A DNA stretch of 64,000 bases from Halobacillus amylolyticus (GTDB taxonomy: Bacteria > Bacillota > Bacilli > Bacillales > Halobacillaceae), in contig NZ_CP095075.1 of the NCBI RefSeq assembly GCF_022921115.1, forward strand, positions 2,926,001 through 2,990,000. The letters are read 5' to 3'. The translations under genes were made by a program, and so were the position numbers. Shown in pieces: positions 16,532 through 58,274 of the stretch. The notes under the pieces were generated by a model. The model searched no databases, had not been told where the DNA came from, and worked only from the letters and a program-made list of their open reading frames with translations. Every line of letters begins with the position of its first letter. The first letter of the stretch is position 1.

Positions 16532-17876
16532 GGGACTGTCAATAATTTTGTGTAAATAACCATATACCTCTTCTTGTAGCTGCTGTTACTCGTTAAACAT
16601 TTCTGCTATTTCAGACCTTGCTTGATCAAAACCAATGTGGCAACGTGTTGCGAAACGCTGGTTGTATTCTTCGAACTGAGTGACGAGAAATCGGTCCAGT
16701 GATTCTTCATTGGGGAACTGCTCTTTGCGCTTGCTGTATTTCTTGATCTTCTTAGTGAAGGACTCGATTAAATTGGTGGAGTAGATACTCTTTCGAATGG
16801 ACTTGGGGAAGTCATAAAACGTGAAAAGATCCTGGTTATCGCTAAGGGATTGAGTGACCTTCGCATATGATTTCTTCCACTTCTCTATAAATGCTTCCAT
16901 CGCTTCCTCAGCTTTCTCTTTATTATCCGCACGGTAAAGGGTCTTCAGGTCTTCACATATTTCTTTTCGATCTGAAACACGGACTTTATGGGCGATATTA
17001 CGGGAAACATGGACGAAACAGGTTTGGTACTTGGCCTTGGGGAACACCGAATAAATGCTTTCTTTGATCCCTTTTAATCCATCCGAAATAAAAAGGAGCA
17101 CCTCCTCAACACCACGAGCTTGAATATCCTCAATTAACTCTTTCCAAACGTACGCAGATTCGGTTGGAGCAATCGTGTAAGCGAGCACCTCTTTAGATCC
17201 GTCTTCCCGAATTCCAACGGCAATATAGACAGCTTCCTTGGATACGGTATCTCGCTTGACGGGAAGAAAGGTCGCATCTAAATAAACGCATACGTAACGC
17301 TTGGATAAAGTTCGTTGGCGAAATGCTTCTACTTCTTCGCCGATCGCTTTGGTCATGTTTGAAATCGTTTGGGGCGTATAATGGTGGCCATACATTCGTT
17401 CAATCAAATTGGATACTTCGGACATGGTGACACCCTTTTGGAACATATGTATGACGAAGGACTCCAGGGTATCGTTGGTGCGCTTATAAGGAGCCACTGT
17501 TTGTTGTTTGAACTCTCGATTTCGATCACGAGGGATGGAGATCTCAAGCTCACCATACTCGGTTTTTAAGGTACGGGAATAAGAGCCGTTGCGAGAGTTT
17601 CCGGTATGAAAGCCTAGACGATCATACTTTTCGTAGTCTAAGAAGGCTGTCAATTCCGTTTGAAGCAGCGTATTCACCGCGCTTTCCAGGTGGCTGCGAA
17701 AGATTTCCGAAATATCCTCTTTTTTCACTAGAGCTTGTATAATATCTGATGTAAAATGATCCATAAGGGAAGACCTCTTTTCTTTGGATTGGTTGTGGTG
17801 ACTTAATTCTACAAGAAAAGGTCTTCCTTTTTCTATTTGGAAAGAATTCTATTTACACAAAATATTTTACACTCTC
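16532..17876. mobile_element. Complete IS256-family insertion sequence
   Basis: 1,345-bp element bounded by 27-bp imperfect inverted repeats (16532-16558 and 17850-17876; 22 of 27 positions match, the inner 14 being identical, ATTTTGTGTAAATA). Flanked by an 8-bp direct repeat TGATCACT at 16524-16531 and 17877-17884, the target-site duplication. It carries a single intact transposase. Intact ends, target duplication and open transposase point to a recent insertion. Confidence 0.95.
16586..17764 (-). CDS. IS256-family (mutator type) transposase
   Basis: 392-residue transposase. The DDE residues can be placed at Asp163 (YLDATF), Asp228 (ISDGL) and Glu334 (NLIESF), with the family segment CFVHVSRNIAHKV at 249-261 between the last two. 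Length is normal and no frameshift is seen. It lies on the minus strand inside the element; the ribosome site is AGAGG before the ATG. Gene calls around the element are not interrupted, so no gene appears to have been broken by it. Confidence 0.96.
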   Translation of the reverse strand: MDHFTSDIIQALVKKEDISEIFRSHLESAVNTLLQTELTAFLDYEKYDRLGFHTGNSRNGSYSRTLKTEYGELEISIPRDRNREFKQQTVAPYKRTNDTLESFVIHMFQKGVTMSEVSNLIERMYGHHYTPQTISNMTKAIGEEVEAFRQRTLSKRYVCVYLDATFLPVKRDTVSKEAVYIAVGIREDGSKEVLAYTIAPTESAYVWKELIEDIQARGVEEVLLFISDGLKGIKESIYSVFPKAKYQTCFVHVSRNIAHKVRVSDRKEICEDLKTLYRADNKEKAEEAMEAFIEKWKKSYAKVTQSLSDNQDLFTFYDFPKSIRKSIYSTNLIESFTKKIKKYSKRKEQFPNEESLDRFLVTQFEEYNQRFATRCHIGFDQARSEIAEMFNE

Positions 17877-17884
17877 TGATCACT

Positions 17885-18367
17885 TCCTATTTACTAGTCT
17901 TATTTTATACCATTATCTCAACAAACTCATAACCTTCCCATTTTTCCCCGCAATGACTGCTCCAAATTTAATGCCTCGCCAAATAATTCTTCACACGCAA
18001 GCTTCTATATATCAACATGGTCAAACGTTGTATGCCATGCCCTAGATTGTATTCAATCAGTGATAATGTTACCTCTTTAGATTACTTCCAGTTCACAAAC
18101 CGCCAAAGCATGTGAATCATACGGGCAAAAATACCTGCTCCATTTAAACTCGTTTCATTCTCTCTTCTGATAATCTTTCTTTTGCCGAATCATACAATTT
18201 TTTTATGAAAACTGTACAATCACACCATCACCAGAGCCGGATTCCTAAATTGTACAAAATTTATCTTTAAAACTTCATACATTTTTTACATTACATTAAA
18301 AGAGTCTAGTGAATACAATGGATGTAATAGTAATTTAACTATTCAGATAATGACGGGAGGGAAAAAT
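17885..18367. other. Ectoine-operon upstream region with decayed sequence
   Basis: From 17885 to about 18180 there are short open fragments on the minus strand with stops in all frames, possibly an old gene that I cannot identify. From 18190 onward the DNA is AT-rich and holds the inverted repeat described at 18213. Confidence 0.35.
18213..18256 (+). promoter_or_regulatory. Inverted repeat upstream of doeA, possible operator
   Basis: TGTACAAT (18213-18220) and its exact complement ATTGTACA (18249-18256), 36 bases centre to centre, about 110 bases before the doeA start. A related ATACAAT occurs at 18192. The arrangement resembles a looped or paired regulator site; the regulator is not known. 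Confidence 0.4.
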
Positions 18368-19579
18368 ATGGTGCTTCCATTTGATATTTTAGAGTATCAA
18401 AGTCGTCTGAAGAAGACGAAGGAACGTATGGCTGATAAGGGAATTGAAGTGTTATTAATTACGGATCCTGCAAATATGAATTATTTATCCGGTTATGATG
18501 CGTGGTCATTTTACGTGCATCAGATGCTTGTGATTATGATTGATGAACCGCAGCCGATATGGATTGGGCGCTTTCAAGATGCAAATGGTGCCAGGGTTAA
18601 GACGTGGATCTATGATGAGAACATTATTTCTTATCCTGATTACTATGTGCACTCAAGTGTCTATCACCCAATGGACTTTATTTCTGAAATTTTGACGCAA
18701 ATTGGTCAGGGCACTCGTGACATCGGTGTTGAGATGGATCATTATTATTTCACAGCAATGGCTCTTGATCGCCTGAAACGGGGAATGCCTAACGCAAAGT
18801 TTCATGATGCTTCAGTACTTGTCAATGGGGTTCGGATTGTTAAATCGGATCAAGAAATTGAATATATGAAGCGGGCCGCTACAATTGCAGACTTGGCAAT
18901 GACCAAAGGGGCTGAGAGTATCCGTGCAGGTGGCCGGGAATGTGATACGGCCGCAGAGATCTACTACCACATGGTTCGCGGTACCTCGGAATTCGGTGGT
19001 GATTATCCAGCCATTGTACCACTACTGCCGACAGGGGAGAATACATCGATTCCCCATCTCACATGGACAGATAGACCGTTCGTTGAAGGCAGTGCTGTCA
19101 TTGTAGAGCTGGCAGGTTGTTATAAACGATATCATGTTCCGCTGGCACGAACCGTTTCAATAGGTCAACCGAGTGAAAGACTCAACAACCTCTCCTCCGT
19201 AGTCACGGAAGGCATTCAAAATGTGCTTCAAGCCGCAAAGCCGGGTGTGACTTGTAGTGATTTAGAAGAAGTATGGAGTAAAAGTATTCAAAAGTACGGT
19301 TTTGAGAAGGAATCTCGCCTTGGTTATTCGGTGGGGTTGAATTACCCTCCAGATTGGGGAGAGCATACAGCAAGCATTCGTAAAGGTGACACAACTGTTC
19401 TACAGCCAAATATGACTTTTCATTTGATACCAGCTCTTTGGTTCGATTCCGATGGCATTGAAATTAGCGAAACATTCCGGGTGACAGAGACAGGAAGTGA
19501 ACGGTTTACGACCTATCCGCAGGAATTGATTGTTAGAAACGACCCATTCAACATTAGCTCAAACGGTCAAATCAGCTAG
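18368..19579 (+). CDS. doeA: Ectoine hydrolase DoeA/EutD
   Basis: Opens the ectoine ring to N-acetyl-2,4-diaminobutyrate. It is an M24 peptidase-fold protein with an N-terminal creatinase-like domain (residues 1-150, including ITDPANMNYLSGYDAWSFY) and a C-terminal pita-bread domain. In the latter the usual metal-binding Asp positions look substituted (IVELAGCYKRYHVPLART), as expected for this specialised branch rather than aminopeptidase P. 403 residues. The ATG at 18368 follows GGGAGG by six bases; an upstream ATG at 18350 overlaps that ribosome site region. First gene of the ectoine operon. Confidence 0.9.
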   Translation: MVLPFDILEYQSRLKKTKERMADKGIEVLLITDPANMNYLSGYDAWSFYVHQMLVIMIDEPQPIWIGRFQDANGARVKTWIYDENIISYPDYYVHSSVYHPMDFISEILTQIGQGTRDIGVEMDHYYFTAMALDRLKRGMPNAKFHDASVLVNGVRIVKSDQEIEYMKRAATIADLAMTKGAESIRAGGRECDTAAEIYYHMVRGTSEFGGDYPAIVPLLPTGENTSIPHLTWTDRPFVEGSAVIVELAGCYKRYHVPLARTVSIGQPSERLNNLSSVVTEGIQNVLQAAKPGVTCSDLEEVWSKSIQKYGFEKESRLGYSVGLNYPPDWGEHTASIRKGDTTVLQPNMTFHLIPALWFDSDGIEISETFRVTETGSERFTTYPQELIVRNDPFNISSNGQIS

Positions 19580-19593
19580 GAGGTGTGGGAAGC

Positions 19594-20562
19594 ATGCGTC
19601 TCTATACAAAAGATGAAATTCAACACGCAGTCCGATTAAACACTACTGTCATCGATAGCATTGAAAGCGCATTCACATCACTTGAAACAAAAAAGGTTAC
19701 GATGCCACCGATTATGCGGATTGACATCCCTGCTAACAATGGCGAAGTTGATATTAAATCTGCCTATATTGAAGGGTATGACAGTTTTGCCGTTAAACTT
19801 TCGTCTGGATTTTTCAACAATGCAAAACTAGGGCTTCCCAGTGGAAATGGCATGATGATCCTCATTAGTACAACGACCGGCGAACCGCAAGCTATCCTCG
19901 CAGACAACGGATTGCTCACAGATATTCGCACAGCTGCCGCAGGGGCCGTAGCTGCTAAGCATCTCAGTCGGGAAGACAGCCGGACAGTTGGCATCATCGG
20001 GACAGGATCACAATCCAGATATCAACTACAAGCCCTTACACACGTCCGGCCCATTGAGCAAGTTCAAGTATACGGACGAAGTCGTGAAAAAGCAGAACAA
20101 TATAAATCATTTATTGAAAAGTCGTTAAACGTGAGCGTTGACATTAAAGGTACGCCGTACGAAGCCGTCTGCAACAGCGACATTATTATTACAGCCACCC
20201 CGGCAACAGAGCCGGTCCTTATGGCTGAGTGGCTCAGCGAAGGCCAGCATATTACCGCCATGGGTTCAGATGCGGAGCACAAGCAGGAGCTTGAAACTAA
20301 TGTACTCGAAAAGGCGGACTTAGTCGTTTGTGATGTAAAGGAGCAGTCGCTCATACTTGGCGAGCTAAGATCGTGTTTAAACAGTGAAATAATTAATCAA
20401 GTACATGAATTAGGAGAAATAACGAGCGGTCAAAAGCCTGGGAGAACAGGTTATAACCAAATCACTGTTTGCGATCTGACAGGAACAGGGGTGCAAGACA
20501 CGCAAATCGCTCGCTATGCCTATCAACAATTAAACTTTAAGGAGGATGATGATAATGAGTGA
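19594..20562 (+). CDS. eutC: Ectoine utilization protein EutC (ornithine cyclodeaminase/mu-crystallin family)
   Basis: NAD(P)-dependent reductase-like protein of 322 residues. The Rossmann motif is VGIIGTGSQSRYQLQAL near residue 131, and the N-terminal domain has the family's LPSGNGMMILISTTTGEP. EutC works with EutB to convert the hydroxyectoine intermediate to the ectoine one. The ATG at 19594 with AGGAGGTG eight bases upstream is preferred over a GTG at 19585 that lies inside the ribosome site. 14 bases after doeA. Confidence 0.88.
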   Translation: MRLYTKDEIQHAVRLNTTVIDSIESAFTSLETKKVTMPPIMRIDIPANNGEVDIKSAYIEGYDSFAVKLSSGFFNNAKLGLPSGNGMMILISTTTGEPQAILADNGLLTDIRTAAAGAVAAKHLSREDSRTVGIIGTGSQSRYQLQALTHVRPIEQVQVYGRSREKAEQYKSFIEKSLNVSVDIKGTPYEAVCNSDIIITATPATEPVLMAEWLSEGQHITAMGSDAEHKQELETNVLEKADLVVCDVKEQSLILGELRSCLNSEIINQVHELGEITSGQKPGRTGYNQITVCDLTGTGVQDTQIARYAYQQLNFKEDDDNE

Positions 20563-21754
20563 AGCTAAATTTAGCACAAAATCAATCTGGGCTGGGGAGA
20601 GAGACTCACTTGCCTTTGGCGCTACGCAAGTTCCAGTCGTTCATAGTGTATCGTTTGGTTATGACGATATGGATGAATGGTACGAAGTGGCAATTGGCAA
20701 CAAGCCAGGCCACATATATGGACGTAATACGAACCCAACTGTTCAAGCTTTTGAAGAGAAGATCCGCATCCTGGAAGGAGCAGAGGCAGCAACAAGCTTC
20801 TCGACAGGCATGGCTGCAATCAGTAACACCCTTGGGACCTTGCTATTTCCAGGCGACCGCATCGTATCAATTAAAGATACGTATGGCGGGACAAATAAAA
20901 TTTTCACGGAATTTCTTCCCAAACAGCAAGTAGATGTCGTGCTTTGCGATACAGGTGACCATGAGGCGATTGAACAAGAAATTGAGAGAGGTTGTAAAGT
21001 GCTTTATTTGGAAAGTCCAACAAACCCAACCGTAAAAATAACCGATATTAAGCGAATGGCTAAGGCTGGGAAAGCTGCCGGAGCTATCGTAGTCGTTGAT
21101 AATACGTTTGCCACTCCTGTCAACCAGAACCCACTTGAACTTGGTGCCGATTTAGTAATTCATAGTGCCACGAAGTTCCTTGGTGGCCATGCTGATGCAC
21201 TTGGCGGGTCTGTTTGTGGAAGCAAAGAACTTGTTGAAGCGATCTATCACTATCGTGAAATTAATGGTGCCACCCTTGATCCGATGGCAGCTTACTTGCT
21301 TCTTCGCGGCATGAAAACACTGAAGCTGCGCATCGATCAGCAAAATAAAAATGCCCAGGAAATTGCAGAGTTTCTCCAAGGAATAGAACTTGTTGATGAC
21401 GTATTTTACCCTGGACTTGAGAGTCATCCAAACCATGATATTGCTAAAGAACAAATGAAAGGCTTTGGTGGGATGCTTAGCTTTTCTGTTAAAGGTGGTG
21501 TGGAAACCGTTCGTCAGCTGCTGCCAAAACTGCAGTATGCCAATCGGGCGGCGAATCTAGGTTCAGTGGAAACGGTAGTTGGACCATCCAGAACGACGAG
21601 TCATGTGGAATGTACTCCTGAAGAACGTGCAGCAATGGGAATTCCTGAAGGTTTGATTCGTTATTCAGCTGGGATAGAAGATATTGACGACTTGAGGAAG
21701 GACTTGGAGCAAGCTTTTAAAGCACTGCCAGCTGATCTTTTGATCAAGAACTAA
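20555..21754 (+). CDS. Cystathionine gamma-synthase-family PLP enzyme in ectoine operon
   Basis: A 399-residue fold-type I PLP enzyme of the Cys/Met metabolism family. The cofactor Lys is Lys207 in HSATKFLGGHAD; GRNTNPT at 57-63, SFSTGMAAIS at 81-90 and VDNTFATP at 181-188 are family landmarks. Members do gamma- or beta-replacement or elimination on homoserine- and cysteine-type substrates. It overlaps the end of eutC by eight bases (ATG at 20555, GGAGG nine bases upstream), so it is translated within the ectoine operon. No sulfur genes are adjacent. Its role here is unknown; 2,4-diaminobutyrate or a homoserine derivative are candidate substrates by context only. Confidence 0.85.
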   Translation: MSEAKFSTKSIWAGERDSLAFGATQVPVVHSVSFGYDDMDEWYEVAIGNKPGHIYGRNTNPTVQAFEEKIRILEGAEAATSFSTGMAAISNTLGTLLFPGDRIVSIKDTYGGTNKIFTEFLPKQQVDVVLCDTGDHEAIEQEIERGCKVLYLESPTNPTVKITDIKRMAKAGKAAGAIVVVDNTFATPVNQNPLELGADLVIHSATKFLGGHADALGGSVCGSKELVEAIYHYREINGATLDPMAAYLLLRGMKTLKLRIDQQNKNAQEIAEFLQGIELVDDVFYPGLESHPNHDIAKEQMKGFGGMLSFSVKGGVETVRQLLPKLQYANRAANLGSVETVVGPSRTTSHVECTPEERAAMGIPEGLIRYSAGIEDIDDLRKDLEQAFKALPADLLIKN

Positions 21755-21770
21755 GGGAGGGGGGTTTCCT

Positions 21771-22951
21771 GTGACAACCAAAACTACGGACTTAGTTGAA
21801 CGTTCTGTAGAAATACTTCCAGAAATCATTAAATGGAGACGGCATTTCCACCAATTCCCTGAACTTAGTTTTCAGGAAAAGGCAACGAGTGAGACCATTG
21901 TGCAAATCCTCCGTTCGTTTGATGTTTATACGATCGAGACAAAAGTTGGAGGATATGGTGTTGTGGCTACTCTTACGTCAGGGGAAGAAAGACCTGTGAT
22001 TGGTCTGCGGGCCGATATGGATGCTCTGCCGATTTATGAGCAGACGGAACTCTCGTACAGCTCCAAACATCCTGGGGTGATGCATGCTTGTGGACACGAC
22101 GCCCACATCGCTATTCTTTTGGGTGCAGCAAAGCTGCTGGCTGAAGATGCGAAGAATGGACTCTTTAAAGGAACAGTGAAGTTAATCTTTCAGCCGGCTG
22201 AAGAAAATTGTGATGTGCTTGGGGAGACGGGAGCAATGAAGATGCTCGAATCTGGTGCCCTTGACGACGTCGAAGCGGTATTTGCATTGCATGTGTGTCC
22301 TTGGCTTAAGTCAGGCGAAATTCAGGTTAATGATGGACCAAGTATGGCTAATAATGATGATTTTCATTTGATTATAAAAGGCAACGGCGGACATGGAGGT
22401 TACCCACATCATACAAATGATCCGGTATGGATGTCCACGTATCTATTGCAGGCGTTGTATAGCTTAAATGGACGCAGGGTAGATCCTCTTGAGGTTGGCA
22501 CGATTAGTGTCGGGCAAATTCATGCTGGAGAAGCGAATAATGTCATTCCGGGTTTAGTTGAGATTCAAGGAACCGTTCGATCATACAAGAATGAAGTTCG
22601 AGAACTTCTCATTAAAGAGATTGGGGGGCCGCTCGAGTCGTTACGGCTTTAGGTGGGGACTTTGAGTTAACAGTAAATCACGGGGAACCAGCCCTTCTGA
22701 ACGACCCTGCAGTCAATAACGTAATTCGGAGTGCAGCTGCCGGAATGAAGATTATTAATGAACCTTTCGGGATGGGCAGTGAAGATTTCAGCCATATGAC
22801 AGCCCGCATCCCTGGAGCGATGTTTTTCCTAGGGTGCGGGCTTGAGGAGGAACGAAGCTTGCACCACCCTCTTTTTGATATTGATGAAAAGGCTCTGTCA
22901 GATGGAGTAGCGATTTTTATAAAAAGTGTGTATCAGCTTCTGGAAGTGTAA
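21771..22951 (+). pseudogene. doeB: M20-family deacetylase (DoeB-like), frameshifted
   Basis: Metal-dependent amidohydrolase expected to remove acetate from N-acetyl-2,4-diaminobutyrate. The first 293 residues contain HACGHDAHIA, FQPAEE and the dimerisation lid GNGGHGGYPHH. The frame breaks at a run of six G (22623-22628): in the original frame it stops at 22652, while a -1 shifted frame continues as AARVVTALGGDFEL through EPFGMGSEDFS (last metal ligand) to 22951. The rejoined protein would be about 390 residues, normal for the family. GTG start with GGGAGGGGGG. It could be a real mutation, a sequencing error or a slippage site. Confidence 0.85.
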
Positions 22952-22966
22952 AGGAGGGAAAGCATA

Positions 22967-24016
22967 ATGGTAAATATAGCATTTGTTGGATTTGGGGGCG
23001 TCGGGCAGGCTCTTGCTGAAATTTTGCTTCAGCGAAAAGATAGCTTGAATGATTCGTACGGCCTTGATGCAAAAGTTGTAGCTGTTGCTGATATGATGAA
23101 AGGTTCGGTATATGATCCAGATGGGTTGGATGTGGAAAAATTGCTTGAAGCGGTTCGTGAAGATGGATCAGTTGAGAACCTTTCAGGAGGATCACGGATG
23201 AAAAGAGGGTGGAACAGCTTGGATACGATTGCCCATTCCAATGCAGATGTGATTGTTGAGGTAACCTTTACGGATGTAAATACAGGGGAACCGGCGATTA
23301 CACATTGTCGGACTGCTTTTGAAAATAAAAAAAGTGTAGTGACAACGAATAAAGGACCAGTCGCTTTAGCCTATCGTGAACTAGCTGAGTTGGCGAAAAG
23401 TCAAGGAGTTTTCTTTGGATTTGAAGGAACGGTAATGAGCGGTACCCCTGCCCTAAGGATGCCTGTTGAAACACTTGCAGGCAATCAAATTAAAGAGATA
23501 AAGGGGATTCTTAATGGAACAACGAATTACATTTTGACAGAAATGGAGAAAGGGTATTCCTACCAAGATTCTCTAGAAAAGGCACAGAAGCTTGGCTACG
23601 CTGAGGCAGATCCTACTAGTGATGTTGAAGGATATGATGCTCGGTACAAAGCAGCAATTTTAGCTAACTATTTAATGGGGGAACCTCTTTCTCATACCGA
23701 GATTGAGTGTGAAGGGATCAGTGAAGTGACGTCTGAACAAGTGCAAGAGGCCCTGCTTGATGGTAAGAAATTACGCTTACTTGCTCGCGTTAAAAATGAA
23801 CAAGGAATAATTAAGGCAAGTGTGAAGCCGGAGCGAATTGATGCAGATGATCCGCTTGCAGGAGTTATGGGAGCCACAAACGCAATCGTCTATGAATGTG
23901 ATCTTGCTGGGCCAATTATGCTGACTGGAGCAGGTGCAGGGTTAAAAGAAACTGGCTTTTCACTGCTGATTGACCTCATTCATTATCAGAAGGAGAAACA
24001 GCTGGCTAAAATATAA
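22967..24016 (+). CDS. Homoserine dehydrogenase-like oxidoreductase
   Basis: 349 residues, NAD(P)-binding GFGGVG at 8-13, TTNKGPVA near 126, then NGTTNYILTEM and EADPTSDVEGYDARYKAAIL, which hold the catalytic Asp and Lys of homoserine dehydrogenase. There is no ACT domain, so no threonine feedback is expected. In this operon it could reduce aspartate semialdehyde from ectoine breakdown to homoserine, or it may act on another amino aldehyde or on diaminobutyrate. It starts 15 bases after doeB with AAAGGAGGG upstream. Confidence 0.85.
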   Translation: MVNIAFVGFGGVGQALAEILLQRKDSLNDSYGLDAKVVAVADMMKGSVYDPDGLDVEKLLEAVREDGSVENLSGGSRMKRGWNSLDTIAHSNADVIVEVTFTDVNTGEPAITHCRTAFENKKSVVTTNKGPVALAYRELAELAKSQGVFFGFEGTVMSGTPALRMPVETLAGNQIKEIKGILNGTTNYILTEMEKGYSYQDSLEKAQKLGYAEADPTSDVEGYDARYKAAILANYLMGEPLSHTEIECEGISEVTSEQVQEALLDGKKLRLLARVKNEQGIIKASVKPERIDADDPLAGVMGATNAIVYECDLAGPIMLTGAGAGLKETGFSLLIDLIHYQKEKQLAKI

Positions 24017-24030
24017 AGGAGGGGACCCCA

Positions 24031-25479
24031 GTGCATACAAAAATAAAGGCGATGAAGATGTTGATTGGCGGAAAGTGGGTTAGTGCCGAAGAAACGTTCG
24101 AAGTGCGCGACCCTCAAGATAATGAAGTGATCGCCCGCGTTCCTCTCGCATCAAAACAAGATATGACATTCGCGATTGAAGAGGCTGAACGAACGTACAG
24201 GAACACCCAAGTATGGCCAACGCATGAGCGAATTGCGATTTTGAACAGAGTCGCAAATTATATAAAGGAACATGCTGAGGAATTTGCTCAATTAATAGCT
24301 TCTGAAGGAAGTAAAACCATTAATGAGGCACGGGGTGAAGTAAAGCGGACCACACAAACGATTCAAATCAGTGCTGAAGAAGCACGGAGAATGAATGGTG
24401 AAACTATAAATTTTGACCAAAGTGAAGGAAGCGAAAATCGTATTGGCTATCAGTATCGTTTCCCTGTTGGTGTGATTGGGGCGATCACACCATTTAATGA
24501 TCCCTTGAATCTTGTGGCACACAAAATCGGACCTGCAATTGCCTCGGGTAATGCCATTGTTGTCAAACCGGCTTCCGTTACACCGCTAAGTGCCCTGAAA
24601 TTGGCAGAGGCTTTTGTAGAATCAGGGCTTCCGGAAGGGTTTTTATCGGTAGTCACAGGATCGGGGCGTGAGCTTGGGGATACACTCGTCACACATTCAT
24701 CTGTAAAAATGATTTCTTTTACTGGCGGGCCAAACGCTGGAGAGAAAATCACTCAAAAAGCCGGTGCGAAAAAAATCAGCATGGAGCTTGGTTCCAATTC
24801 CCCGGTTATTGTCTTGAAGGATGCTGATCTTCACGATGCCGTCCAGTCCTCAGTATCTGGGGCATTTTCGGCAGTTGGCCAAAATTGTATTGGAGTACAG
24901 CGAATTTATGTGGAAAGAGAGATCTATTCTACATTTCTGGACACGTTCGTTAATCGAACCGCTGAACTAATAGTTGGAGACAAAATGGATGAACTGACAG
25001 ATGTCGGCCCAATGATCGAGCAACGTGAAGCTGAGCGTGTGGAAGCATGGGTGAACGAAGCAGTCACTGACGGAGCTAAAATTGAGGTAGGCGGTAAACG
25101 GCAAGGTGTTTATTACTATCCAACTGTTTTAACAAATGTCCCCGCGACAGCTAAAATCGCGAAAGAAGAAATTTTCGGTCCTGTTGTATTGATTCAACCT
25201 GTTGAGGATTTGAGTCAAGCTGTCGAGCAGGCAAACGATGTGGACTACGGTTTGCAAGCGGGTATTTTCACAAGCAACATTCATCATGCTTTTTACACAA
25301 TAAAACATATGAATGTTGGCGGCGTTATGATTAATGACAGCAGTGATTACCGAATTGATGCCATGCCATTCGGCGGGACCAAAGGCTCGGGAGTCGGTCG
25401 TGAAGGAGTTCGTTATGCGATGGAGTCGATGACTGAATCTAAAGTTGTTTGCTTCCGGCTGCAAGAGAATATGCTTTAG
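24031..25479 (+). CDS. doeC: Aldehyde dehydrogenase, probable aspartate-semialdehyde dehydrogenase DoeC
   Basis: 482-residue NAD(P)-dependent aldehyde dehydrogenase. The catalytic Cys286 is in VGQNCIGVQ and the general-base Glu252 is in MELGSNSP; the coenzyme motif FTGGPNAGEKI is at 230-240. As the last gene of the operon it probably oxidises aspartate semialdehyde to aspartate, the final step of ectoine use. GTG start with AAAGGAGGGG. Homologues oxidise succinate semialdehyde or methylmalonate semialdehyde, so the substrate is assigned by context. Confidence 0.85.
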   Translation: MHTKIKAMKMLIGGKWVSAEETFEVRDPQDNEVIARVPLASKQDMTFAIEEAERTYRNTQVWPTHERIAILNRVANYIKEHAEEFAQLIASEGSKTINEARGEVKRTTQTIQISAEEARRMNGETINFDQSEGSENRIGYQYRFPVGVIGAITPFNDPLNLVAHKIGPAIASGNAIVVKPASVTPLSALKLAEAFVESGLPEGFLSVVTGSGRELGDTLVTHSSVKMISFTGGPNAGEKITQKAGAKKISMELGSNSPVIVLKDADLHDAVQSSVSGAFSAVGQNCIGVQRIYVEREIYSTFLDTFVNRTAELIVGDKMDELTDVGPMIEQREAERVEAWVNEAVTDGAKIEVGGKRQGVYYYPTVLTNVPATAKIAKEEIFGPVVLIQPVEDLSQAVEQANDVDYGLQAGIFTSNIHHAFYTIKHMNVGGVMINDSSDYRIDAMPFGGTKGSGVGREGVRYAMESMTESKVVCFRLQENML

Positions 25480-27241: not shown

Positions 27242-27318
27242 ATGTGCGAAGAAGGTTTTTAACTGAAAAGATCGAAATAAGATAGTGAAGATCTTTTTTG
27301 CGAAAAGGGGGTATTAAC

Positions 27319-28187
27319 ATGAATGGGTGGGAGGAAAGCTTAGTTGAAACGTCCCGTGGAACGTTTGAAGTGTTTATGAAAGGGAAGGGACAGCCTCTTT
27401 GTGTCACACATCTCTACTCAGAGTTTAATGATTCAGGCGACTATTTTGCCGAGGTATTTACAGATCACCATCGTGTTTGCTTAGTTAATTTACGAGAAAC
27501 AGGCCGCTCGGCAAAAGCAGCAGAACCCCATCACTTAAGTATGTTTGAATCTGTTTTAGACTTAGAAGCTATTCGGGACATGCTCGGTTATAAAAAATGG
27601 GGGGTTGCCGGACATTCTACCGGGGGATGCTTGGCGTTCTATATAGCATTTACTTTTCCGAACACTTATACTTTCAGTTAATTGTAGGGGCGGCTGCAAG
27701 AGAGTACATGACCTTTTCGGACCAATGCATTTATAATGAGAATCATCCAAACTTCGCTTTCATGCAAAGCCTTATAGAAAAATTAAAGCACAGCGATTTA
27801 TCCGAGAACAGACGAAAGGAATTGACCATCGAACGAACGAAGTTATCACTACATAGGCCCGAACTGTATGAAGAACTATTTAATGGACGTTCCCATAAGA
27901 CAATGTCTGCTGTCCGCATGAATTATTTTGTAAGGGAGCTGCCTATATTTGATGTGACCCGCAAATTGCAATTGGTTGATACACCGACTTTAATTTTATG
28001 TGGAAAACATGATGTCCAGTGTCCATTAGAATATTCCCTGGAAATGAATGAGCACATACCCGGTTCTAGGCTTGTCGTGTTTGAAGATAGTAATCATTAC
28101 CCATTTTTAGAGGAACCAACGAAATTTAAACAGGCTGTCAATCAATTTGCCACTGAGATAAGGAAGGCAGATGATGCGAAAAATTGA
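27319..28187 (+). pseudogene. Alpha/beta hydrolase, frameshifted
   Basis: Proline-iminopeptidase-like or esterase-like hydrolase. The first part reads to 27681 and includes the nucleophile elbow GHSTGG (Ser near residue 98); the reading then continues only in a frame shifted by -1, as FSEHLYFQLIVGAAAREY, to 28187, ending with HYPFLEEPTKF where the catalytic His lies. The break is near the TTTTCC at 27654-27659. Rejoined length would be about 289 residues, normal. One small change accounts for it, so a sequencing error is possible. Start ATG 27319 with AAAGGGGG. Confidence 0.8.
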
Positions 28188-41367: not shown

Positions 41368-42260
41368 ATGAATAATAAAGTGTTATTAACAGCAGCTGTT
41401 ACAGGTGCAGGTGATACAACGCAAAAAAACCCTCATGTCCCGGTAACACCGAAAGAAATTGCTGATTCGGCGATCGAGTCTGCTAAAGCTGGGGCTACGG
41501 TAGCGCATGTCCATGCTCGTGACCCGCAAACGGGTGGGATTAGCCATAACGTTGATCATTATCGTGAAATTGTCGATCGCATTCGCGAATCGGATACAGA
41601 TGTCGTTATTAATATTACATCAGGTGGCGGCGGTGATTTTATTCCGAGTCTAGCCACGCCAGCTGCTGGCGGTGATGGTACGGATATGCAGACACCGGAA
41701 GAACGTCATGCACCTGTGGGGCAATTGCTTCCTGAAATGTGTACGCTTGACTGCGGCAGTACGAACTTTGGAAATATGATTTATCTAAGTCCGACAGATT
41801 GGCTTCGTGAGCAAGCGAAGCTCGTTCAAGCAAGCGGTGTAAAGCCAGAGCTTGAATGCTTTGACACTGGTCATGTGCGTTTTGCTAAGCAATTAATTAA
41901 TGAAGGTCTTGTTGATGGAGATCCGATGTTCCAATTTTGTCTCGGCATTCCTTGGGGGCAGAGGCAGACGCAGAAACGATGCTTTATATGAAGAATCGGT
42001 TACCTGAAAATGCTCACTGGTCCGCGTTTGGTATCGGACGCATGCAAATGCCGATAGCGGCACAGGCAGCTATGTTAGGCGGCAATGTTCGGGTTGGTTT
42101 AGAAGACAATATTTATTTGAAAAAAGGTGTTATGGCACGAAATGACCAACTTGTTGATAAAGCAGTCGATATGCTGCACGGAAATGGTATAGAGATTATG
42201 ACACCACAAGAAGCTCGCGAACAATTTAATCTGCGTAACCCTCATGAAGGAGGAAAATAA
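41368..42260 (+). pseudogene. 3-dehydrocarnitine cleavage enzyme (BKACE family), frameshifted
   Basis: Beta-keto acid cleavage enzyme expected to convert 3-dehydrocarnitine plus acetyl-CoA to acetoacetate plus betainyl-CoA. N-terminal LLTAAVTGAGDT, the zinc-site HVHARDP near 49 and ELECFDTGHV near 167 are present. At a G5 run (41954-41958) the frame ends 11 codons later (41991), while the -1 frame continues from GAEADAETMLYMKNRLP to the true C-terminus at 42260. The rejoined protein is about 297 residues. AGGAGG start site. Confidence 0.87.
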
Positions 42261-42262
42261 CT

Positions 42263-43228
42263 ATGGCTATGAACAGAACAATTAATAATATTACAGTAGT
42301 TGGAACAGGAGTCATCGGGAATGGCTGGATCGCTCGCTTTCTAGCTCAAGGCTATGATGTCGTTGCCTTTGACCCAGCTGTTGGTGCTGAAGAGCGCACT
42401 CGTAAAGCAATTGACCATGCCTGGACATCATTGGAACAGAGAGGACTTGCTCTAGGAGCTTCAAAAGATCGTTTGCGTTTTATCAATACCATGGAAGAAG
42501 CGGTAGCTGAGGCTGATTTCATTCAGGAAAATGTTCCTGAACGTGAAGATCTGAAGAAAAGTGTTCTGGGAAACATTGATCGCTATGCAAAACCCGAAGC
42601 CATTATTGCATCAAGTACTTCTGGAATTATTCCGACTACATTGCAATCGAATTTACAATATCCAGAGCGGTTCATCGTAGCTCATCCATTTAATCCTGTT
42701 TATTTACTTCCTTTAGTAGAGGTTGTAGGCGGAGAATCTACTGATGCAGCTATTATTAAAGAGGCGTGTGGACTTTTTGAAAAAGTTGCCATGAAGCCGC
42801 TTGTTATTCACAAAGAAATCGATGGTCACGTTGCTGACCGTTTAATGGAAGCTCTTTGGCGTGAAGCACTGCACTTAGTCAATGATGGTGTGGCAACGAC
42901 GGAGGAAGTTGATACAGCAATCATTTATGGTGCTGGTTTGCGCTGGGCGCAAATGGGTCCGTTCTTAACATTCCACTTGGCCGGGGGTGAACAAGGGATG
43001 CGCCATATGCTTGAGCAATTCGGCCCAGCCCTTAAACTCCCATGGACGAAGCTCAAGGCTCCAGAGCTTACAGATGCCTTAAAAGAACGAGTCATTGAAG
43101 GGTGTGAAAGTTACGCAGGTAATCAGTCTGTTGCGGATCTTGAACACAAACGAAATGAGTTTCTAGTTAAACTGCTAGATTTAGTTGAAGAGTATTGGCC
43201 TGAGTCCAAAAGTCTTGTGAAAGAATAA
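42263..43228 (+). CDS. L-carnitine dehydrogenase
   Basis: 321-residue NAD-dependent dehydrogenase of the 3-hydroxyacyl-CoA dehydrogenase fold, oxidising carnitine to 3-dehydrocarnitine. VVGTGVIGNGWIARFLAQG is the Rossmann start; VAHPFNPVYLLPLVEVV and the C-terminal GAGLRWAQMGPFLTFHL are typical of carnitine dehydrogenases. It begins two bases after the BKACE gene with GGAGGAAAA upstream. The equivalent in Pseudomonas is CdhA. Confidence 0.92.
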   Translation: MAMNRTINNITVVGTGVIGNGWIARFLAQGYDVVAFDPAVGAEERTRKAIDHAWTSLEQRGLALGASKDRLRFINTMEEAVAEADFIQENVPEREDLKKSVLGNIDRYAKPEAIIASSTSGIIPTTLQSNLQYPERFIVAHPFNPVYLLPLVEVVGGESTDAAIIKEACGLFEKVAMKPLVIHKEIDGHVADRLMEALWREALHLVNDGVATTEEVDTAIIYGAGLRWAQMGPFLTFHLAGGEQGMRHMLEQFGPALKLPWTKLKAPELTDALKERVIEGCESYAGNQSVADLEHKRNEFLVKLLDLVEEYWPESKSLVKE

Positions 43229-43253
43229 AAAACTCATAGATGGAGTGATGAAT

Positions 43254-43724
43254 ATGCCAGAGTCAGCGTTTAATTATCAGGATCATGTGCATAAGGAATG
43301 GGTGGATTACAACGGTCATATGAATGATGCCGCATATGCAGCTATTTTCAGTCACGCGGTGGATTATTTCATGGATTACATCGGTTTAGATGAAAAAGCT
43401 CGTGAATCGTTTGCTTATACTATTTTCACATTAGAGACACATCTTTGCTATTTGAAAGAAGCCCATGAAAATGAAAAGATTCACGTTTCTGTTCAATTAA
43501 TAGACGATGATGCAAAGCGTCTTCACATCTTTTTTGTAATGAAAAATAATCACGGGGACACGCTGGCTACAAGTGAGCAGATGCTAATGGGAATGAGTAC
43601 GGCTGAAGGGAGGCCCGCTTCGTTTCCTGAATCAGTCTCTCAAATGATTAAGCAAATACGACAAGCACATGAACATTTAGAAACGCCTAAACAAGTGGGC
43701 AGACAGATTGGTATTAAGCGATAA
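43254..43724 (+). CDS. Betainyl-CoA thioesterase (hotdog fold)
   Basis: 156 residues, acyl-CoA thioesterase of the 4HBT type with VHKEWVDYNGHMNDAAYAA (catalytic Asp/Asn region) at about 11-29. In the carnitine pathway it releases glycine betaine from betainyl-CoA (CdhB role). ATG at 43254 with GGAG eight bases upstream; two in-frame starts lie just before it. A slightly divergent residue set is normal for this family. Confidence 0.85.
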   Translation: MPESAFNYQDHVHKEWVDYNGHMNDAAYAAIFSHAVDYFMDYIGLDEKARESFAYTIFTLETHLCYLKEAHENEKIHVSVQLIDDDAKRLHIFFVMKNNHGDTLATSEQMLMGMSTAEGRPASFPESVSQMIKQIRQAHEHLETPKQVGRQIGIKR

Positions 43725-43760
43725 GTCATCACTTGATCGGGATAAAAGAGGAGAATGTTT

Positions 43761-44960
43761 ATGAATAAGATCGAAGTCAAAAATATGACGAAAATCTTTG
43801 GTTCTCATCCTAAACAAGGCTTGAAACGTTTAGATAATGGGGAACAGAAGGATCAAATTTTAGAAGAAACAGGTTTGACGGTTGGAGTGAACCAAGCTTC
43901 ATTTGACGTTAAGCCTGGAGAATTCTTTGTGATTATGGGGCTGTCAGGAAGTGGGAAATCAACATTGATTCGCCTGGTGAATCGCCTGATTGAGCCAACA
44001 GCTGGTGAAGTCTATATTGACGGAGACGATATTACAAAAATGAACCAGGCCTCCTTGATCGAAACACGACGCAAGAAATTAGGGATGGTTTTTCAAAAGT
44101 TTGGTTTATTCCCCCATCGCACAGTATTAGCTAACGTAAGTTATGGACTAGAAATACAAGGAATGAAAAAAGAGGAACGAGAAGAAAAGGCGCAGAAGTC
44201 GATTGAGGATGTTGGCTTGAAAGGGTATGAAAATAGCTATCCTGATCAATTGAGTGGCGGGATGCAGCAGCGTGTAGGCCTTGCTCGTGCCCTTGCCAAT
44301 GATACTGACATCCTGTTGATGGACGAAGCTTTTAGTGCCCTTGATCCTCTCATCCGTAAAGAAATGCAAGATGAGTTGCTTCATTTACAGAAAAAGTTGG
44401 GCAAAACGATTTTATTTATTACCCATGACCTGGATGAAGCATTAAAACTTGGTGATCGTGTCGCCATTATGAAAGATGGACGCATCGTACAAGTAGGTAC
44501 TTCTGAAGAAATCCTAGAGAATCCAGCGAACAAGTATGTATCTAATTTTGTGAAAGACGTAGATCGCTCCAAAGTACTGGAAGCTCATCATGTCATGCAG
44601 AAGCCTGAAGTGTTAACAACGTATAAAGATGGTCCACGTGTGGCTGTCCGCAAGATGGAAGAGGCGGGTGCTTCCAGCATTTTCGTTGTCGATAAAGAGG
44701 ATAACTTCAAAGGCTTGTTAACAATTGATGATGCTATTGAAGCGTACAACAAAGATATTCCTTTAGAAAAAGTCCTAAAAGAAGATGTACATGCGACCTT
44801 ACCCGAGACACCACTTAATGAGCTGCTCGGGATTGCAGCAGAGACGAAGTATCCAATTGTTGTACAAAATGAAGGCAAGCTAGTTGGGATTATCTCACGT
44901 GTTTCTATTCTTTCAGGACTTGTGCTTGGAAAAGAAAAAGATGAGGTGAATGAATCATGA
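43761..44960 (+). CDS. Glycine betaine/carnitine ABC transporter ATPase with CBS pair
   Basis: 399 residues of the OpuAA/ProV type. Walker A GLSGSGKST, signature LSGGMQQRVGLARAL, Walker B ILLMDEAFSALD, H-loop ITHDLDEAL; then two CBS domains (about 275-395) that in OpuA sense ionic strength. The adjacent carnitine enzymes suggest carnitine as substrate; betaine is an alternative. ATG at 43761 with AGAGGAG. Confidence 0.92.
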   Translation: MNKIEVKNMTKIFGSHPKQGLKRLDNGEQKDQILEETGLTVGVNQASFDVKPGEFFVIMGLSGSGKSTLIRLVNRLIEPTAGEVYIDGDDITKMNQASLIETRRKKLGMVFQKFGLFPHRTVLANVSYGLEIQGMKKEEREEKAQKSIEDVGLKGYENSYPDQLSGGMQQRVGLARALANDTDILLMDEAFSALDPLIRKEMQDELLHLQKKLGKTILFITHDLDEALKLGDRVAIMKDGRIVQVGTSEEILENPANKYVSNFVKDVDRSKVLEAHHVMQKPEVLTTYKDGPRVAVRKMEEAGASSIFVVDKEDNFKGLLTIDDAIEAYNKDIPLEKVLKEDVHATLPETPLNELLGIAAETKYPIVVQNEGKLVGIISRVSILSGLVLGKEKDEVNES

Positions 44961-45787
44961 ATTATTTCTACTTGCCTTTAGAAGAGTGGACGAATTCTTT
45001 TGTGAATAATTGGCTGCTCCCTGTGTTGGGTGGATTTTTCAATCAAATTAGTAAAGGCCTTGGAGCATTTATTACGGGTGTGACCGATTTACTCATTGCC
45101 GTTCCCCCAGAGATTATTGCCATTGTACTGATTTTACTAGCTTGGAGGACTGCTGGTAAGGGCATAGCATTATTTACGCTGATCGGTTGTATTTATTTAG
45201 GCTCTGTCAATCTATGGGATGGTGCGATGCAGACAGTTGCCGTCGTGATTGTCTCGACATTACTATCAATCATTGTCGGTGTACCTGTGGGGATAGTAAG
45301 TGCAACCAATTCAATAGTCGATAAGATCACCCGTCCGATTCTCGACTTTATGCAGACATTGCCTAGTTTCGTTTATTTAATTCCAGCAATATTACTATTT
45401 GGACTTGGCGGTGTCCCGGCGGTGATTTCAACATTTGTATTTGCTACCCCGCCAGCGGTTCGTATGACGAGTTTAGGAATAAAACAAGTTCCTGCCGATG
45501 TGGTTGAGGCCTCAAAGGCTTTCGGTTCTACACCAAAGCAGTTGCTTTTCAAAGTACAACTGCCTATGGCTGTACCAACGATTATGGCGGGAATCAACCA
45601 GACGATCATGTTAGCCCTGTCGATGGCGGTTATTGCCTCAATGATCGGTGCGCCAGGACTTGGATCAACTGTTCTATCAGGGATATCAACAGTTAACGTC
45701 GGACTTGGCTTAACAGGTGGTTTAGGCATTGTTGTGTTAGCGATTGTTCTTGACCGAATTACTCAAGGATTAGGTCAAAAAGTATAA
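44957..45787 (+). CDS. Glycine betaine/carnitine ABC transporter permease
   Basis: 276 residues, ProW/OpuAB-like, with about seven membrane segments. The EAA loop is VVEASKAFGSTPKQLLFKVQLP near 180 (in part), and TLPSFVYLIPAILLFG is a family segment. Overlaps the ATPase gene by four bases. Confidence 0.92.
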   Translation: MNYFYLPLEEWTNSFVNNWLLPVLGGFFNQISKGLGAFITGVTDLLIAVPPEIIAIVLILLAWRTAGKGIALFTLIGCIYLGSVNLWDGAMQTVAVVIVSTLLSIIVGVPVGIVSATNSIVDKITRPILDFMQTLPSFVYLIPAILLFGLGGVPAVISTFVFATPPAVRMTSLGIKQVPADVVEASKAFGSTPKQLLFKVQLPMAVPTIMAGINQTIMLALSMAVIASMIGAPGLGSTVLSGISTVNVGLGLTGGLGIVVLAIVLDRITQGLGQKV

Positions 45788-45808
45788 ATCAAAAGGAGAA
45801 GGTTACTA

Positions 45809-46690
45809 ATGAAAAAGATTTTATTAGGTATTACGACAACACTACTACTAGCATTTATCGTCGGCTGTTCAGCTGAAAAAGAAGCAAGCAGCAGTGAAGC
45901 TTCAGATGAGAATGGCAAAGATAAGACGATTACTTTTGGTGTGACACCGTGGACAAGTACTGTCCCTCCAACTAAAATCGCCGGACTGATTTTAGAAGAT
46001 ATGGGTTATACAGTTGAGGAAACAAAGGCAAACGTTGGCGGTGTATTCATGGGATTATCCCGTGGAGATCTTGATGTGTTCATGGATGCATGGCTTCCTA
46101 TGCACCAGGTGCACTTGGATAAATTCGGAGATAAACTAGATGACACAGCTGTAAGTTATCCGAAAGCAGAAACTGGCTGGGTCGTACCGACGTATATGAA
46201 AGATATTAATTCGATTTCCGACTTAAAAGGAAAAGAAGACCTGTTTAATAACAAAATGTATGGAATTGAAGAAGGGGCAAGTGCAACGAAAGAGTCTAAC
46301 GAGATCATTAAGGCTTACGGGTTAGATATGAAACAAGTGAACTCTTCTGAAGGTGGTATGATCGCACAGGCGTCCCGTATGATGGCCCAAGAAAAGCCAG
46401 TCGTATTTTATGGTTGGCGGCCACACACGATGTTTAACAAATTTGATTTGAAAGTACTCAGCAATGACCAAGGATTCTTTGGTTCTTCTTCTGTTCACGT
46501 CATTACTAACAATAAACTGAAGGAAAAAGCACCAGATGCCTATGAATTCCTAAGCAACTGGAGTATTTCTATTGACGAAGTTGAGGCAATGATTGTGGAA
46601 ATTGAAGAAAACGGCAAGGATGCTGAAAAAGTCGCTCGCGAATGGATTAACAACAACCAGGACAAAGTCAACAAAATGTTGGGTAAATAA
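45809..46690 (+). CDS. Glycine betaine/carnitine-binding lipoprotein
   Basis: 293 residues. Lipobox FIVGCS (Cys20) then the OpuAC/ProX binding fold with FGVTPWTSTVPPTKIAG, DVFMDAWLPMHQVH and VFYGWRPHTMF; Trp residues in these segments are candidates for the aromatic cage that holds the trimethylammonium head. Last gene of the carnitine operon, followed by a strong terminator. Confidence 0.92.
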   Translation: MKKILLGITTTLLLAFIVGCSAEKEASSSEASDENGKDKTITFGVTPWTSTVPPTKIAGLILEDMGYTVEETKANVGGVFMGLSRGDLDVFMDAWLPMHQVHLDKFGDKLDDTAVSYPKAETGWVVPTYMKDINSISDLKGKEDLFNNKMYGIEEGASATKESNEIIKAYGLDMKQVNSSEGGMIAQASRMMAQEKPVVFYGWRPHTMFNKFDLKVLSNDQGFFGSSSVHVITNNKLKEKAPDAYEFLSNWSISIDEVEAMIVEIEENGKDAEKVAREWINNNQDKVNKMLGK

Positions 46691-57496: not shown

Positions 57497-58274
57497 TCAG
57501 AAGCCTGTTGTGGTGGTGAAACTTGGTGGGAGTATGCTTGATCGATTGTCGAAAGACTTTTACCAAAGCTTTATGGAGCTGCGCAAACATTATCACTGTG
57601 TCATTGTTCATGGCGGGGGCCCGGCGATCACGTCGATGCTTGACCGGCTGAAAATTGAATCCGAGTTCCATGAGGGTTCTAGAAAGAGTACGAAAGAGAT
57701 CCTTGAAGTGGTTGAGATGACGATGGGTGGAAAGGTGAACGCGCAAATCACTTCGAAGCTTGGGCGCCAGTCGATTCGGGCAATTGGTATAAAGGGATCG
57801 GATGCATCGTTGTTAACGGCTCGCTTGATTGATCAGGAGAAATGGGGATATGTCGGAGAGGTGGAACAGGTAGAAACAGATCTGCTGCTCCGCTTACTTG
57901 AAGCAGATTACCTGCCTGTCCTTGCCCCACTTGGAAAAACCCAAGACGGGCAAACCGTTAATATTAATGCAGATCTTGCAGCGGCAGCTGTAGCCAAGGC
58001 TATGAATGCTGAGAAATTATTGTTTGTAACAGATGTTCTTGGAATAATGCGTCAAGGTGCTGTCATGGAGGAAACTACGCCAGAAGAGATCACTTCACTG
58101 ATTGAAAATGGCTGGATATACGGCGGAATGATTCCGAAGGTGCAGTCAGCTGTAGATGCGCTGTCTGATCAGCTTGAGGAAGTGATGATTGTCAGTGGAG
58201 AACAGCCACTGATTCAGAAGAACCAAATGGTCGGGACGAAGATTCGATCAAAGCGAAAGGAGGGGATCGAATGA
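57465..58274 (+). CDS. argB: Acetylglutamate kinase
   Basis: 269 residues, amino-acid kinase fold: [21 protein letters not shown] and [10 protein letters not shown] are present. The ATG at 57465 ([14 protein letters not shown]) overlaps the argJ end by 32 bases; another ATG lies at 57459. No clear ribosome site, which suggests coupling to argJ. Confidence 0.92.

Follow-up and report, generated by a model that had tools for sequence, protein, structure and literature searches.

An ectoine-degradation operon of Halobacillus amylolyticus that may run through homoserine

Introduction

Ectoine is degraded in Halomonas, Ruegeria and Sinorhizobium by enzymes encoded in clusters of the doeABCD or eutDE-ssd-atf type, in which an ectoine hydrolase acts first, N-acetyl-L-2,4-diaminobutyrate is then deacetylated to L-2,4-diaminobutyrate (DABA), and aspartate semialdehyde and its dehydrogenase come last (PMC5924519). 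The route through the class III aminotransferase DoeD is described in the same source and in PMC7192451. Ectoine degradation in Gram-positive bacteria is little known. Here we analyse a six-gene operon of Halobacillus amylolyticus, contained in a stretch of 64,000 nucleotides (positions 2,926,001 to 2,990,000 of NZ_CP095075.1; hereafter the window) on the main contig, of 4.15 Mb; the genome comprises two contigs and 4.30 Mb in all. Its likeness to the doeABCD type lies in a putative ectoine hydrolase at the start, a deacetylation step and a putative aspartate-semialdehyde dehydrogenase at the end. Instead of the class III enzyme DoeD/Atf, it has a pyridoxal phosphate (PLP) enzyme of the cystathionine gamma-synthase family (CGS) and a homoserine dehydrogenase (HSD), and its deacetylase belongs to the M20 family and was not matched to EutE/DoeB.

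Among the closest described systems is the Gram-positive cluster of Boas Lichty et al. (AEM, April 2026; PMC13188858), whose putative ectoine-catabolism genes in Bacillaceae, eutD-eutC-atf and abgB-thrA-adh, form the same set, in the same order, as those of the window operon. There, thr is described as reducing aspartate semialdehyde to homoserine, and the assignments are called tentative. The main text contains the word "homoserine" once and "cystathionine" not at all, hence no CGS assignment, and the parts of the article considered here hold no route through homoserine. The PLP gene that these authors name atf and our CGS gene are equated by cluster position rather than by sequence comparison. 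The published cluster also has adjacent pucR and eutB, whereas the window operon is flanked by neither. An earlier description of the window from its sequence (the original prediction) had suggested a possible branched ectoine-to-homoserine pathway outside the textbook scheme; the cluster was already in print, with thr read as semialdehyde reduction. What is added here is the CGS-family identity of the PLP enzyme, the replacement of two genes for one, the occurrence of the CGS-HSD-dehydrogenase trio in other operons, and a linear route with an oxidative HSD. We found no proposal of a conversion of DABA to homoserine in the full-text literature searched, a scope outside which most subscription papers and all preprints fall.

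Results

On balance, we favour the reading that this is a Bacillota-type ectoine-degradation operon running through homoserine, in which DoeD is replaced by CGS and HSD jointly. We observe which genes are present, which occur together and which replace one another, and that catalytic residues are conserved; all substrates, all products and the direction of HSD we infer. DoeA would open ectoine to N-acetyl-DABA, from which the M20 enzyme would remove the acetyl group. CGS would then bind the alpha-amino group of DABA, let the gamma-amino group leave as ammonia by way of a beta,gamma-unsaturated intermediate, as its family usually does, and add water to give L-homoserine. This would be oxidised by HSD to L-aspartate semialdehyde, opposite to the direction in the original prediction, and the aldehyde dehydrogenase (ALDH) would pull the semialdehyde on to L-aspartate. 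CGS plus HSD would be the counterpart of the aminotransferase DoeD of Proteobacteria, and the presence of all three genes is explained by an oxidative HSD that works between CGS and ALDH.

The operon consists of six consecutive, nearly touching genes on the + strand (18350/18368-25479 of the window). The first codes for a doeA/eutD-like ectoine hydrolase (18350..19579, its start probably being the ATG at 18368, preceded by gggaggg) with Creatinase_N and peptidase M24 domains; TIGR02993, the ectoine hydrolase model, is its best family match by far, at 483 bits and below the cut-off of 613. It is followed by an eutC-like ornithine cyclodeaminase/mu-crystallin-family reductase gene (19585..20562), whose product reaches the cut-off of NF006141 (448 bits, cut-off 408) and not that of the EutC model TIGR02992 (397 bits, cut-off 472). 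The CGS gene (20546..21754, with an alternative start possible at the ATG at 20555) belongs to PF01053 and passes NF006097 (738 bits, cut-off 600); we propose that its product is a homoserine-forming, DABA gamma-substituting enzyme. After the M20 gene (21771..22951) comes HSD (22967..24016), which passes NF004912 (439 bits, cut-off 373), shows no ACT domain among the domain matches listed, and is proposed to be an oxidative, NAD+-linked enzyme. The last gene, ALDH (24031..25479), is a member of PF00171 for which none of the 25 NCBIfam models listed is over its cut-off; a role as aspartate-semialdehyde dehydrogenase (DoeC/Ssd) is proposed for it. The gene list of the original prediction is therefore correct, with NCBIfam or Pfam matches for all six genes. 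The close packing it described also agrees with the spacing that we find, namely a gap of 5 bases, an overlap, and gaps of 16, 15 and 14 bases, when the deacetylase is counted as ending at 22951.

As assembled, the deacetylase gene is split: its first frame (21771-22652) closes after 293 aa, and the C-terminal part lies in another frame up to 22951, the change occurring close to six consecutive G at about 22,620-22,635. The gene is unbroken, with 390-403 aa, in all 10 inspected relatives of the same family. The same kind of split between two frames affects at least two more window genes, coding for an alpha/beta hydrolase (27298-28187) and for BKACE (41368-42260), and assembly indel errors are therefore a likely cause. 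The first part of the protein by itself reaches the cut-off of TIGR01891 (310 bits) and stays far below that of DoeB2 (NF038260, 228 bits, cut-off 550). What had been called a doeB-like deacetylase is indeed a deacetylase-like gene, of the M20 family and not intact as assembled.

Methionine gamma-lyases are the closest solved relatives of CGS, with which it shares the fold-type I PLP enzyme architecture and the family catalytic residues of PF01053. Lys210, Tyr113, Tyr58, Arg60, Asp185 and Arg372 are all kept in the alignment, and we take their roles to be those of the family, Lys210 presumably being the PLP lysine. However, CGS differs from these lyases in three respects: it does not reach the methionine gamma-lyase cut-off (TIGR01328, 378 bits, cut-off 550), it has Gly115 at the position of the lyase Cys in 28/28 aligned sequences, and it carries a signature of its own, His235-x-Arg237-Glu238-Ile239-Asn240, which is invariant in the 28-member alignment and at least 98.5% conserved in 123 sequences. 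The Cys in question matters in methionine gamma-lyase. Among genomes with DoeA, CGS is better conserved than DoeA itself, the lowest best identity to the window protein being 69% for CGS vs 50% for DoeA.

In HSD, Lys122, Lys129, Glu213, Asp219, Asp224 and Lys228 are kept in at least 98% of 149 sequences, some of them near-identical. The Asp and Lys residues that we take to be catalytic are among them, which, with the NF004912 match, bears out the earlier statement that these are intact. Asp42, at the end of strand beta-2, is present in about 99% of the same 149 sequences, some near-identical; an acidic residue at this place usually means NAD(H). Two further HSD-like genes exist elsewhere in the genome (38% and 32% identity), and the longer, 431-aa HSD of the genome has, by eye, Val-His-Asn at the Asp42 position. 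Catabolic homoserine dehydrogenases that oxidise homoserine to aspartate semialdehyde are on record from Arthrobacter and Rhizobium (cited in PMC10228743); these use homoserine from the environment, and we liken the operon HSD to them by function, not by sequence.

We surveyed 397 genomes of the order for DoeA (E<=1e-70), the CGS clade (E<=1e-140) and HSD of the operon kind (E<=1e-75). DoeA is present in 119 of them, from 62 of the 135 genera. The CGS clade likewise occurs in 119 genomes: all but six of those with DoeA (113 of 119), and six of the 278 that lack it. HSD is found in 95, 94 of which also have CGS. Of 138 DoeA places, the window's own and three contained in another analysed region were set aside, and the other 134 were analysed as regions of at most 20 kb. 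Gene labels follow phmmer score thresholds that we set, and absences are weaker in eight regions shorter than 15 kb owing to contig ends. CGS, HSD and ALDH occur together in 92 of the 134 regions; in 90 of these, which represent 47 genera, no class III gene is present, a recurrence that argues against a chance arrangement. Apart from these 90, and counting same-strand genes, the regions hold CGS but neither HSD nor ALDH (22), none of the three and also no class III gene (13), ALDH with a class III gene (3), all three with a class III gene (2), a class III gene alone (2), ALDH alone (1), or HSD and ALDH (1). Of the 13 empty regions, 11 hold the second DoeA locus of a genome whose CGS locus lies elsewhere. 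The full order eutD-eutC-PLP gene-abgB-thrA-adh is contiguous in 28 of the 134 regions, with variants in others, and an M20 gene directly follows CGS in 73 of the 114 regions with CGS. This survey, suggested by the original prediction, supports the association of both genes with ectoine clusters.

In a 2023 study of Aquibacillus (PMC10203224), doeA is reported as the sole degradation gene common to all genomes, with doeB in two strains; the authors conclude that their newly isolated strains use ectoine chiefly as an osmolyte, and refer to one Sinobaca strain that both makes and consumes it. Aquibacillus albus, A. kalidii and A. saliphilus carry DoeA-CGS-M20-HSD-ALDH, and a search for homologues of DoeB, DoeC and DoeD can thus miss a complete pathway.

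Three regions from three genera (L100, L107 and L110 in our numbering of loci) carry DoeA-(EutC)-M20-ALDH followed by a class III aminotransferase, and lack both CGS and HSD. At the same E thresholds, no CGS or HSD of the operon kinds was found anywhere in the genomes of L100 and L110; that of L107 (G381) has a second DoeA locus (L098) with CGS, HSD and ALDH. In L100 and L110 the NCBIfam model that the class III enzyme matches best is PRK07480, at 457 and 415 bits (cut-off 510), and EutB in L100 is over its NCBIfam cut-off. Two other loci, L134 and L147, likewise carry class III genes and lack CGS and HSD, and the five loci together require at least two changes on the DoeA tree. The layout of L134 and L147 is different, with a GabT-like gene (family scan in L134), ALDH, a RidA-like gene (by eye), M20 and an EutB-like gene downstream of DoeA (L134:13906-19571, L147:12509-18166). 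Two apparent exceptions to the replacement, L101 and L126, were discarded, their class III genes being a HemL-like gene and ArgD at the region edge.

ALDH accompanies HSD in 93 of 93 regions and occurs without it in four, three of which have the aminotransferase. On the DoeA tree (a quick tree without bootstrap, as is that of CGS), 9-10 of 11 independent pairs change together for HSD and ALDH and none oppositely (p 0.002-0.004, well-supported branches). The simplest reading is that CGS plus HSD and the aminotransferase are alternative ways to the substrate of ALDH. The suggestion that the PLP enzyme stands in place of DoeD thus gains support, CGS being present in nearly all DoeA genomes and absent together with HSD where an aminotransferase adjoins ALDH.

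The operon itself holds no class III aminotransferase (PF00202). Genome-wide there are six matches over cut-off plus one weak, the six corresponding by NCBIfam to ornithine transaminase RocD, acetylornithine transaminase ArgD (window 58271-59455), Dat, EctB and two HemL. DABA TRANSAMINASES are therefore present outside the operon, two in number, EctB and the Dat-type enzyme (793 bits, cut-off 671). EctB lies with EctA and EctC (ectABC), so the genome encodes ectoine synthesis. Behind Dat come a DABA-decarboxylase-like gene (399 bits, below its cut-off of 900) and, two genes further, an N-monooxygenase-like gene (363 bits, below its cut-off of 700); we take this for a siderophore cluster. No DoeD is linked to the operon, yet DABA transamination is, judging from these matches, available in the cell. 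The original prediction that no DoeD-type aminotransferase is here holds for the operon and not for the genome. A doeD gene elsewhere, co-regulated with this operon, was part of what it named as a refutation; EctB and Dat answer to the first half of this, and both lie in other clusters.

CGS, HSD and ALDH also occur together away from DoeA. Three loci of the order (L183-L185, in genomes G185, G278 and G360) have CGS-HSD-ALDH followed by an amino acid permease, with no DoeA and with a GntR-type gene opposite; an alignment search returned the same layout in Ectobacillus (L242), Peribacillus (L255) and Paenibacillus (L248 and L269). A further locus, L190, has CGS, the permease and a homocysteine S-methyltransferase, and lacks HSD and ALDH; the scan for the GntR-type gene covered L183 and L190. 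The permeases of L183, L190, L242, L248, L255 and L269 have the S-methylmethionine permease as best NCBIfam model, at 664-675 bits, the next model scoring 402-422, and homocysteine S-methyltransferase is over cut-off in L190, L248 and L269. In the CGS tree, the eight CGS genes of these S-methylmethionine-like operons and the lone gene L186 form a group, marked by a star, nested among the CGS of ectoine operons. S-methylmethionine and DABA have in common a 2-aminobutyrate skeleton with a gamma leaving group, so that water entering there would give homoserine from both, usable by HSD and ALDH.

A Brevibacillus locus (L229) was rejected as an S-methylmethionine operon, and is still labelled as one in that tree: its permease matches PRK10836 (amino acid permease) at 647 bits vs 407 for the S-methylmethionine model. 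In this locus of Brevibacillus fluminis (L229:8971-14500), PucR stands opposite CGS-HSD-ALDH and the PRK10836-type permease, and DoeA is absent from the stretch examined; it could be an operon for imported DABA. In L186-L189, from large genomes of the order, CGS is a lone gene beside an acetoin/2-oxoacid dehydrogenase-like cluster (by eye).

The CGS clade extends to other phyla. Among the best 80 of at least 589 alignments, it lies on contigs of Chloroflexota/Anaerolineae, Desulfobacterota and others at about 68-73% identity, many of them metagenome bins. Of 147 genomes sampled from the class to which a Desulfotignum bin belongs, 13 contain the clade (57-70% identity), and five of these have DoeA. 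A PanB gene, 86-100% identical to that of Desulfotignum, lies about 2.2 kb from DoeA in all five, and CGS is on the same contig as DoeA and PanB in four. Each of 17 genomes searched has at least one PanB, so that the relevant point is the extra copy beside DoeA. In the one such locus analysed gene by gene, that of the Desulfotignum bin (L267), the M20 gene and DoeA enclose PanB (292 bits, cut-off 208), a 315-aa protein that matches nothing in Pfam or NCBIfam, and a class I aminotransferase. CGS, PanB and a class I aminotransferase are consecutive in an Anaerolineales bin (L257), which has no DoeA at the threshold used. From this gene content, the aminotransferase and a reversed PanB could in Desulfobacterota convert homoserine via 4-hydroxy-2-oxobutanoate to pyruvate and a C1 unit. 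The row in L267 (4349-10886: PanB paralogue, 315-aa protein, class I aminotransferase, DoeA) is thus possibly an anaerobic ectoine route with these end products.

Around the window operon, a Mutator/IS256-type transposase gene (16586-17764, - strand; PF00872, 389 bits) lies 0.6 kb upstream, and the downstream flank consists, by eye, of genes of other kinds. PucR and EutB, which flank the operon in many relatives, adjoin neither end, EutC is here without EutB, and no EnuR was seen near the operon. DapA, found beside many clusters, was rejected as a pathway gene, since it does not belong to the operon and is read from the other strand. Farther along the window (41368-46690), genes for BKACE (PF05853), a 3-hydroxyacyl-CoA dehydrogenase-type protein (PF02737), a thioesterase (PF13279) and an OpuAC-type transporter stand in a row that looks like carnitine degradation and uptake.

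Discussion

Several observations weigh against a route through homoserine. The clean form of the replacement amounts to three loci. When kinship is allowed for, the linkage of CGS and HSD is not significant (mean 2.7 informative pairs, p 0.25), nor is the replacement vs CGS alone (2 pairs, p 1), because CGS is almost always present. One region (L168) has HSD and ALDH without CGS. The genome has the two other DABA transaminases. No M20 gene is found in 41 of the 114 CGS regions, and deacetylation is thus not tied to CGS. The S-methylmethionine permease scores lie below the curated cut-off of 716 bits. In other phyla CGS genes often stand alone, and eight of the 13 Desulfobacterota genomes with CGS lack DoeA. 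There are also the 22 regions with DoeA and CGS that lack HSD and ALDH, in whose genomes operon-type HSD was found nowhere (E<=1e-75). Compared with the pathway references, the genes that come next in these regions show no resemblance, save M20 in some. Homoserine formed there could enter threonine and methionine synthesis; 2-oxobutyrate as the product fits these loci equally well.

These 22 loci, and the solved methionine gamma-lyases being the closest structural relatives, are what speaks for CGS as a DABA gamma-lyase, which would yield 2-oxobutyrate and two ammonia and leave HSD and ALDH to serve something else. We consider this unlikely, as it gives no account of the HSD-ALDH pair, of its joint absence with CGS in aminotransferase loci, or of the CGS-HSD-ALDH-permease operons.

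Less probable still is that the PLP enzyme is a DABA aminotransferase producing aspartate semialdehyde, part of which HSD would divert to homoserine. This was one reading of the original prediction, and it agrees with the position of the gene and with the published names, atf for the corresponding gene and thr for a reductase of the semialdehyde (PMC13188858). The 738-bit match is with a CGS-family model, however. Enzymes of PF01053 hold their substrate by the alpha-amino group, and the reaction takes place at the gamma or beta carbon. Moreover, a side branch need not vanish with the PLP gene nor always accompany ALDH. We set the side branch aside because in the regions analysed HSD never occurs without ALDH and is absent with CGS where the aminotransferase is present; the Asp usual for NAD(H) also speaks against it.

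We give the same low credence to an action of CGS on N-gamma-acetyl-DABA, releasing acetamide to form homoserine and making the deacetylase unnecessary. The CGS regions that lack M20 would suit it, and DoeA of H. elongata is reported to yield both N-acetyl isomers, 2:1 (PMC5924519); acetamide, however, is a poor leaving group, and M20 directly follows CGS in most CGS regions. Least probable of all is an ectoine-related substrate, with DoeA a paralogue acting on another ring compound, as the sub-threshold DoeA score and the tentative status of the Gram-positive clusters, given in PMC13188858 without biochemical confirmation, might suggest, because the EutC-type cyclodeaminase here and EutB in L100 pass NCBIfam cut-offs, ectoine hydrolase is by far the best family for DoeA, and the genome encodes ectoine synthesis.

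Beyond the homoserine route of the window operon, we tentatively advance the broader idea, which we hold somewhat short of even, of a new class of PLP enzymes that put water in place of the gamma substituent of 2-aminobutyrates to give homoserine, joined in Bacillota to an HSD-ALDH module leading to aspartate. By extension, the same class would perhaps release dimethyl sulfide from S-methylmethionine; the PanB branch in Desulfobacterota, in which an aminotransferase and a reversed PanB would perhaps yield pyruvate and a methylene-tetrahydrofolate unit, is less sure. If CGS makes homoserine, a widespread and unassigned branch of the Cys/Met PLP enzymes gains a function, and the ectoine, S-methylmethionine-like and PanB-linked operons would become testable by one enzyme assay. 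Should the enzyme class be real, ectoine degradation in Bacillota would mainly take the homoserine route, and a bacterial source of dimethyl sulfide may have gone unrecognised.

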